64,000 bases of DNA. Origin: Warburgia ugandensis. Lineage: Eukaryota > Streptophyta > Magnoliopsida > Canellales > Canellaceae. Shown piece by piece: positions 15,801 through 18,800 of this stretch. The stretch is from positions 35,101,217 through 35,165,216 of the forward strand of contig CP141139.1 in assembly GCA_035236585.1 (NCBI GenBank). Reading direction: 5' to 3'. The notes under the pieces are model-generated. The model did not search any database and had not been told where the DNA came from. It saw nothing but the letters and a program-made list of their open reading frames with translations. The first letter of the stretch is position 1; each line of letters opens with the position of its first letter. The translations under genes were made by a program, and so were the position numbers.

Positions 15801-18800
15801 TTCTTCGATCTTGTGGGCTAACTCCATAAGCCCAGACAGAGAAGCAAGCCTGAACAGCTTGATCTCTGCCTTGATGTCATTCCAGAGCTCATTCAAGAAG
15901 GCTCCCCTCAAGACGTCATCGGATAGTTCGAGCAGGTGACTAGAGAGTAGCTCGAAGGCCCAGAGGTACTCAACTACACTAGCCGTCTGCTTCAAAGTCA
16001 TCAACGTTTTATAATCATCGTCCAACAGAGAAGCAGGTGGCCTTGCTATTCCTGGCAGTGATGGTCCCCCGACAGGAAAGGACTTCTTCTGGGGTTGTTC
16101 GAGGGTTCCCCCACTTCTGCGTTCTGATGACTGCTTCGACTTTTGTCCAGGGACTCCCTATTCTTGATCCACTAGCGAATTTCTACTAAATACTCCCCAA
16201 TTGCATTAACATTAGTCTGTAATCTCCCGAGATGTTCCCTCACATCTCCTATCTCCCCTCTAACTCCCTCTATCTCCTTCTCCATGCTCTCTGCTCTTTC
16301 CATCCTGGTCCTAACCATTCCCTGGGTTCAAACCAGCTTTGATACCACTTGATAAACTCCACTTATTCAACAATGTAATGGAAATTCAATGAAAAATCTG
16401 ATACAGAGTGCACGACTACACCAGACAATCTGATCGTAATCAGTTGGTGTATGATGTGAGTACTGGTTTCTTTGACAGAGATCAAGTTTACAATTCTAGC
16501 CTTCAAGGAGCTAGACCCTCCCACAGTTACCTTCTCCCCCCTCTCCCTCCTCTCCCTCCTTTCCCCCCTTCCTCTTATCCTTCCTTTTTCAGATCTAACT
16601 GAATTCTGTTTTTTTCCCCTCTATTCTTTCCTTCTTTTCTGTTGTACAACTCCCTTTCCGTTATGAGAACCCGTAGACTCTTTGTCCTTACTTCTTCTTG
16701 TATAAAACTTGCCAAATCTGCCTTCCTTTGGCTCATTTGATGTAACAGACAGCTAGTGTTTTCTTTTGAGTTGGTGCCCGTTAGTCTCATACTTCTGTGT
16801 TCTATCTAGAATTTTCTGAAGTGGTGAATGTAAAAGCATCAAAGCCACAGAACTGGGATGGTCAAGGGCATCTTGATATGGCTAACCACTCCCACCATGA
16901 TAAGATATCTAAATATCTCATTAGAAGCTTGCCAAGAGGGACTGGTCTTTATCTAATGGATGAATTTCTTCAGCATGGCGCTTGGAAAAACTCTGGTGCC
17001 TAAGGTTTCAGTTGTGGATGGATCATATGCTGACAGCTTCAATCATCAGAGATCTCATGTCCTGTCCTGGTAGTCAAACTTCTATATGAAATGAGTGCTG
17101 TCCACTAGGGAGGATTAGGATAAACTTTTGTGGCAACTCCATTAACAGAAAACATGACTCTAACAATGGCTGGTGATGTTAAGAATGATCATACTTCAAT
17201 GATCGAGAAATCACCAGAGACCCACATCTTGTGCATTTCAACTTTTATCATATTTTCTCTGGAGATAATCTCTTTTAATTCATATGTTCAACTCATGTAG
17301 TGTTGCCTATATTTGCGCGTATACATCCATCACTATGTAGCATATTATTTGCCAGCACCACCTTACTCGACAATCTAAGAATTGTTTGCAGAAGTCTGTA
17401 TGACCACACATCTTAGCAACTATATGATATAAAATGTCCATTCATAAGCTACTTCTAATATATTTCATTTTCTAAGTCCAATTAAATTTTATTTACCTAG
17501 GATCTCAATTGATCAGGTTATACAAATTTATTTGATATTTTAATTTGGTGTTAACATTTATATGGTGTGGTTTCACATCGAGTATCTAATGTTTCTCATT
17601 CATTTGCTTATGTTTGTTGCAGACACTGTCGACAATGTCTAATTCTAGCATTGAAGAGGTTGTGGCAACAGGATCTGGTATACGGTTTTTCCAGCTCTAT
17701 GTAAGTTTTTGATATCCTGATGTATCTCCTTGTTGCCTAATCTTGGCAATATGGGTTCAAGCTAAACATTTTCTAGGATATACGGGTGTGCTCAAGTATA
17801 TCATTGACCTTCTATAATAAAACATTTTGCTGCATAAGGTTTTCAAGATTCATGTGGCTGACCCCTAATTGGGATAAGGTCTTGATGATGATGATGATGA
17901 TGAAGGTTTTCAGGGATAGGAATCTAGTTACCCAGCTTGTCAGACGAGCTGAAAGGGCTGGCTTCAAGGCTATTGTCCTAACAGTTGATACTCCAAGGCT
18001 TGGACGAAGGGAATCTGATATTAAGAACAGGTCTGCACTTATTTATGGTTAAATTTCTGCAGCATCTATCTGTAGGAAAGTAAAATTCATTGATATCAAA
18101 AGTACATCCTTATGGATTACACTTCAGATTTCATTTGCCGCCGCATTTGACATTGAAAAACTTTGAGGGAATGAAGCTTGGCAAGGTAAAAGCAGTGAGT
18201 AACAGATAAAACTGTTGACTAAATAATCCATTTTGTTTGCCATATCTTATTTTCTCATGTCTTGTTGGTAATGCAGACAAGTGATTCCAGTGAATCTGGA
18301 CTATCCTCACACTTTGCAAGCCCAATTGACCAATCTCTAAGCTGGAAGGTATGTTGCATGTTCAAAAGAACTTGACACAGTGAATTAGTTCTGCCAGAAG
18401 ATTCATGACTTGGTTAGTTCAGCCACAAGTTTGTTAATTCATATGTTTTTTTATCTTGTTGGAGTGCAAAGACCTAAAAAGCTTACTGAAAGCTGGATTG
18501 ATCTTTGAGAACTTAAGAGATAATGGCCAGAGATGATTGCCCTTTTCTGCTTTGTACTTTTATTTAGCAAAAGTCTAACAGATAGTACCATAAGCTTTTC
18601 TGGTACTGCTAATATGGAGGACCCTCTGCATCCAAGATGTTGCTGATGTGTTGATGGGGAATGGGGAAAGCTTTTAAGAAACTCAAATGACTAGAATCCA
18701 AACAAAAATACCATTAATAAGAAGCATCCAAGAGCATGCTTGGGGTCCTGCTACCATTTTCCTTTTATGTAACACATATAAAGGATTATTTTAATGTGGA

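Follow-up and report, generated by a model that had tools for sequence, protein, structure and literature searches.

A truncated LINE tail on the exon 5 boundary of a glycolate-oxidase-like gene, with its candidate splice acceptors

A close counterpart of the locus analysed here is canine merle, in which a SINEC_Cf element lies at the intron 10/exon 11 edge of PMEL with a 15-bp target-site duplication (PMC7349775, PMC6091007). In Arabidopsis, transposable element sequences were reported to create alternative acceptors (PMC10241880), and the titles and abstract openings searched, a scope that leaves out most subscription journals, contained no plant LINE duplicating an acceptor. The window analysed is a stretch of 64,000 nucleotides (C14:35101217-35165216) from a source genome of 1.12 Gb in 14 contigs, whose genes and introns point to a plant, and holds a gene for a glycolate-oxidase-like (GLO-like) protein with the tail of a LINE at the edge of its exon 5 (Table 1). 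As in merle, a retroposon occupies an intron-exon edge, its target-site duplication is tied to the original acceptor and a further in-frame acceptor lies within the element.

Table 1 Features of the GLO-like gene, the LINE tail and the paralogues with an empty site. Positions are those of the window, except for paralogues (contig:position). A slash marks a splice junction.
Feature	Position	Strand	Remark
GLO-like gene, coding part	747..24203	+	11 exons, GT-AG introns
Exon 4	17623..17700	+	ends FFQLY; donor CTCTAT/GTAAGT
Intron 4, downstream-acceptor reading	17701..17905	+	205 bp; 138 bp without the insertion
Target-site duplication, copy 1, AAGGTTTTCA	17836..17845	+	contains the ancestral acceptor AAG/G at 17838
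3' tail of 5'-truncated RTE-type LINE (family by fit), 57 bp	17846..17902	+	ends in ATG/GAT repeat
CTGAC, branch-point-like, in tail	17858..17862	+	A at 17861; 17 nt before 17878
CTAAT, branch-point-like, in tail	17865..17869	+	A at 17868; 10 nt before 17878, 37 nt before 17905
Third candidate acceptor AAG/G at 17878, in tail	17876..17879	+	in frame
Target-site duplication, copy 2, AAGGTTTTCA	17903..17912	+	acceptor AAG/G at 17905, exon 5 edge
Exon 5	17906..18030	+	starts GTT TTC AGG
Near-full-length LINE, same tail family, intron 7	18956..22148	-	split reading frame; 17-bp duplication with one mismatch
Paralogue, empty site	C11:16417280
Paralogue, empty site	C12:56096245
Paralogue (L003), empty site	C12:56140671		compared around exons 4-9 only
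Paralogue (L046), empty site	C1:1907083
Paralogue, empty site	C3:92290847

The LINE tail, its duplication and its family

A first-pass annotation had proposed that a LINE tail landed on the acceptor of intron 4 and that a 12-bp duplication left two acceptors 67 bases apart. The tail and the spacing were confirmed: positions 17846-17902 matched the 3' ends of five other LINE copies in the window with 89-100% identity over 53-59 bp (tails at 6737 and 52414 on the forward strand, and at 19009, 2099 and 23333 on the reverse strand), and the two copies of AAGGTTTTCA lie 67 bp apart. The duplication does span the acceptor and the start of exon 5, but its exact length is 10 bp, with 11 of 12 positions matching if it is extended. 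These exact 10 bp abut the 3' tail, as for an insertion by target-primed reverse transcription, with the edges of the tail (17846/17902) ambiguous by 1-2 bases through microhomology. A test of 319,000 spacings across the window gave 14 exact direct repeats of at least 10 bp at a spacing of 65-69. Many of the 14 sit in tandem arrays, and only the pair at 17836/17903 brackets a LINE tail.

The exon edge was compared with at least six further glycolate-oxidase-type matches in the same genome, all counts being lower bounds and the matches being paralogues, not orthologues. Five of the six paralogues had TAG/GT at the same codon edge and no insert; the equivalent intron of C1:1907083 (L046) has AT for GT at its donor, and only the acceptor edge of this paralogue is informative. 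The sixth (C11:24221591, L048) is a distant glycolate-oxidase-type fragment with a stop between PRLG and REAG; it lacks an AG at the exon edge and is probably a pseudogene. Since five paralogues share TAG/GT without the insert, the 67 bp at the intron 4/exon 5 edge are, on this comparison, a LINE insertion; the acceptor edge is old and the 67 bp are new in the lineage of the GLO-like gene. Comparing the boundary in related species that lack the insertion was a check named in the first-pass annotation, and at the level of paralogues, the only one available, such a comparison removed the case for an ancient intron.

The gene contains five copies of one LINE tail, at 2045, 6737, 17846, 18956 and 23281. 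The tail at the exon edge and the 3' end of the near-full-length copy in intron 7 were 98% identical over 55 bp. The reading frame of the intron 7 copy matched RVT_1 (E 1.8e-34) and an AP-type endonuclease (PF14529), the latter at 23.8 bits, under the cut-off of 27.4, in one copy with a split frame. In all six window copies, CTTGATGATG and then further ATG-type units were found at the 3' end, and no poly(A). Plant RTE-clade LINEs end in (TTG)n or (TTGATG)n (PMC3747384). By this rule the TTG/TTGATG-type end of the tail fits a plant RTE-type LINE: both are RT elements with a short TTG/ATG-type repeat at the 3' end rather than poly(A), and the tail here reads CTTG(ATG)n. As separate observations, the copies at 18956-22148 (reverse strand) and 49277-52494 (forward strand), both near full length and with split frames, are 89.8% identical over 3.2 kb, and a 69-bp tandem repeat is present close to the 5' end of each (21867-22071 and 49355-49545), with a third array at 10815-10992.

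Target-site duplications of about 10-19 bp were readable in two of the five other window copies, the copy at 23281 having its own of 10 bp. No duplication was found for the copies at 2045, 6737 and 49277-52494, whose assumed 5' ends are uncertain or nested. Tails were also sampled from the genome (34 loci, with L007 and L008 omitted for want of an exact core and 32 used), and 8 of the 32 had an exact repeat of 10-19 bp no further than 1.5 kb upstream; the shorter repeats among these may have arisen by chance. In two of the eight tails (L016 and L017) the repeat lies just 57 and 92 bases upstream of the core, which suggests that very short truncated copies of this LINE are not unusual. The tail at 17846 differed from the majority of the sampled tails at one of 46 bases, a CpG-type site. 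Allowing at most two mismatches, the tail pattern matched the genome at 13,313 places (6,674 + 6,639) and its reversed control at none; the 25-base tail pattern had no match in the viral collection or the prokaryote collection, as expected for a plant element.

The GLO-like gene and its constraint

Read with the acceptor at 17905, the gene gives a protein of 370 amino acids ending in ARL, which we take to be PTS1-like, and exon 4 continues into exon 5 at 17906 in frame and gapless against spinach glycolate oxidase. A 367-residue model was identical to the spinach enzyme at 283 of 369 positions, with E values of 3.9e-189 against the Nicotiana enzyme and 6.1e-189 against the spinach enzyme. This model is without three residues (VKA) and the 370-residue model uses the exon 6 donor at 18194, the exon 4/5 junction being the same in both. 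Intron 4 has counterparts of 123 bp in the C11 paralogue and 124 bp in the first C12 paralogue. Elsewhere in the gene, the donor of exon 6 can be read at 18185 or 18194 (region 18186-18194), of which the paralogues agree with 18194, and exon 7 (18277-18348) is three codons longer than in the C11 and C12 paralogues. Intron 3 (1453-17622) measures about 16 kb. Among its several repeats are blocks that match in inverted orientation (4065-5986/13102-14980 and 6794-8228/11741-13116), suggesting that insertions became nested in LINE copies.

Compared with the C11 and first C12 paralogues, both intact, the GLO-like gene showed a dS of 1.0-1.4 and a dN/dS of 0.09-0.13; between these two paralogues the dN/dS was 0.05-0.06. 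Differences from the C11 paralogue at codon positions 1, 2 and 3 numbered 66, 30 and 164, and substitutions affected 7 of 122 deeply conserved columns versus 51 of 193 elsewhere. Residues Y24, Y129, D157, R164, K230, H254 and R257, which we assume to be the active-site residues of glycolate oxidase, were all retained. Spinach, Nicotiana and the C11/C12 paralogues have Trp108 and an APTA loop; the protein analysed here has Met at 108 (17635-17637) and AAAG in the loop (residues 76-79, 1198-1209), and for these two changes we call it GLO-like. In an otherwise constrained protein they possibly reflect a different substrate or a relaxed function. Judged from these comparisons, the gene diverged from its paralogues long ago and has long been under constraint, and its frame is otherwise intact. 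The genome also contains two canonical GLO genes, L009 and L010, that are intact. A second C12 glycolate oxidase, at C12:56140671, lies about 44 kb from the first and has changed conserved positions (IVEEVASTGPGIRFLQLYV, SGLKAI).

Candidate acceptors and the readings they allow

Five AGs lie within 17830-17915, at 17838, 17847, 17878, 17905 and 17913. Splicing to 17847 or 17913 would lead to a stop at codon 136 or 131, respectively, and splicing to 17838 would, as stated in the first-pass annotation, shift the frame, meeting a stop nine codons on, at codon 139. That annotation counted two acceptors, of which the downstream one alone kept the frame; both points have to be revised, since the tail-borne AG at 17878 is in frame as well and would insert VLMMMMMMK after Tyr129. 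The edge would offer three candidate acceptors (17838, 17878 and 17905), two of which (17878 and 17905) would give a full-length protein.

A weight matrix built from the nine other acceptors of the gene scored 17838 at 4.41, 17905 at 2.11 and 17878 at -0.3, the left-out scores of the nine ranging from -9.3 to 6.7. Among the 1,395 AGs of the gene, these values correspond to the 92nd, 82nd and 68th percentiles, and 8% of AGs outscored 17838, 18% outscored 17905 and about a third outscored 17878; a ranking from nine sites is only suggestive. All three candidates read AAG, and the nine other acceptors CAG or TAG. For Arabidopsis tandem acceptors, an AAG upstream of a CAG is predicted at 7% (PMC2375911), which makes AAG a weak form, and this holds for all three sites here.

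The upstream acceptor had been described as lying in the T-richer context. This was true over 47 bases (18 T for 17838 and 14 for 17905) but not over the last 17, where 17838 and 17905 have six T each and 17878 has five. The contrast was clearer in purines, with 8 of 17 before 17838 and 11 of 17 before 17905, the latter bearing out the purine-rich context described for the downstream site; the nine other acceptors have 5-8. Pyrimidines numbered 9, 9 and 6 in the last 17 bases before 17838, 17878 and 17905, and 27, 24 and 20 over 47 bases, where the nine others have 23-33. In all three spans measured, 17905 had the fewest pyrimidines among the twelve sites.

As the literature searched yielded no plant branch-point distances, branch-point-like motifs were identified with a general consensus. 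TTGAC (17807) lies 31 nt and ATAAT (17817) 21 nt upstream of 17838, and no AG comes between them and this site. The tail contains CTGAC, CTAAT (Table 1) and, 20 nt before 17905, TTGAT. The site of CTGAC reads CCGACC in 26 of the 32 sampled tails, CTGACC in four and otherwise in two. An RNA structure that hides an acceptor or brings one near was also considered, and folding did not support it (z -0.22 and +1.64).

We favour, with moderate confidence, insertion of a truncated LINE followed by leaky and partly unproductive splicing, mostly to 17838, with a productive minority using 17905 or 17878. A severely 5'-truncated RTE-type LINE transcript would have been reverse-transcribed into the intron 4/exon 5 edge by target-primed reverse transcription, and the 10 bp holding the acceptor would have been duplicated during the insertion. 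Since 17838 is still the first AG downstream of the ancestral branch-point region, a large part of the transcripts would be expected to use this site. Transcripts spliced in this way would meet a stop at codon 139, with six more junctions to follow, and would presumably be cleared by nonsense-mediated decay. The remaining fraction may be spliced to 17905, or to 17878 in the tail, through the branch-point-like motifs that the tail supplies, and the outcome would be a leaky, weakened GLO-like gene buffered by the intact GLO paralogues. The top matrix score of 17838 and its 47-base pyrimidine content, within the range of the nine other acceptors, speak for this reading, and its T count over the last 17 bases, equal to that of 17905, speaks against it; together the sequence evidence leans weakly to use of 17838.

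A strong rival, given the intact frame, is that the spliceosome mainly uses 17905; the tail would then only lengthen the intron by 67 bp and leave the protein as it was. We regard this as a serious possibility, if a somewhat doubtful one. The oxidase frame is gapless with 17905, TTGAT and CTAAT could act as its branch points, its matrix score is second of three and its T count over the last 17 bases is no lower than that of 17838. If the insertion is old, an intact frame and long-term constraint on the gene would agree with 17905 as the main acceptor, but constraint over a dS above 1 tells little of the period since the insertion. Against this rival also stand the 11 purines before the AAG, outside the range of the nine other acceptors, and the AGs at 17838 and 17878, which precede 17905 after the host motifs.

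It is unlikely that 17878 is the main acceptor and the oxidase carries the nine tail-encoded residues right after Tyr129. The site is in frame, CTGAC lies 17 nt upstream of it, and retroposon-borne acceptors are known (PMC7349775, PMC6091007). It nevertheless has the lowest matrix score of the three. Nine extra residues beside what we take to be the active-site tyrosine would probably harm the enzyme.

Just as improbable, in our view, is the broader proposal that the abundant RTE-type tail is a portable 3' splice site, made of CTGAC/CTAAT and GGGATAAG/G followed by a stop-free ATG run, which near an exon would add in-frame methionine-rich peptides; the oxidase would then be an example in which three acceptors compete and two are productive. 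That the 67 bp are an old intron with a chance direct repeat and no insertion is extremely improbable: the GAT run is of low complexity and 10-bp direct repeats occur at similar spacing elsewhere in the window, but near-identical tails occur at 13,313 places in the genome and five of six paralogues lack the 67 bp.

Chance, significance and known systems

An element inserting at random in the gene would double an acceptor in 0.3-0.6% of events, and over five such events the probability is 1.7-3.2%. With 13,313 tails, a genome of 1.12 Gb and an assumed 150,000 introns, about 14 acceptor-doubling insertions would be expected genome-wide before selection, a figure that is arithmetic on the assumed intron number. 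No targeting is therefore needed for such an insertion and, given the number of tail matches, no special retention is needed for one case. The first-pass suggestion that the element was kept because the duplication preserved the exon edge is a plausible hypothesis.

At this locus, the choice that plant splicing makes between nearly identical AAG/G acceptors can be tested cleanly in a natural setting. The same ten bases are presented twice, in the ancestral intron context and in a context supplied by the LINE, next to a third acceptor made by the LINE itself. If the tail did act as a portable acceptor, its genomic matches would be a source of new exon edges.

Acceptor-doubling retroposons are already known as a kind, and the acceptor inside the tail is the most interesting part of this case. 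Similarly to the Alu insertions at the intron 14 acceptor of NF1, the tail represents a TPRT-type insertion at a splice acceptor; the NF1 elements differ in being Alus found in patients, and the passages of PMC3219598 consulted do not describe duplicated acceptors in use. As in introners, a target-site duplication supplies a splice site, but introners create new introns (PMC9860276), whereas here the acceptor of an existing intron was doubled. The merle SINE is a close precedent, although it is inserted antisense and its poly(T) serves as the polypyrimidine tract (PMC7349775, PMC6091007), unlike the sense LINE tail with its purine-rich end. In merle, splicing and phenotype were studied, whereas the present case is known from sequence alone.
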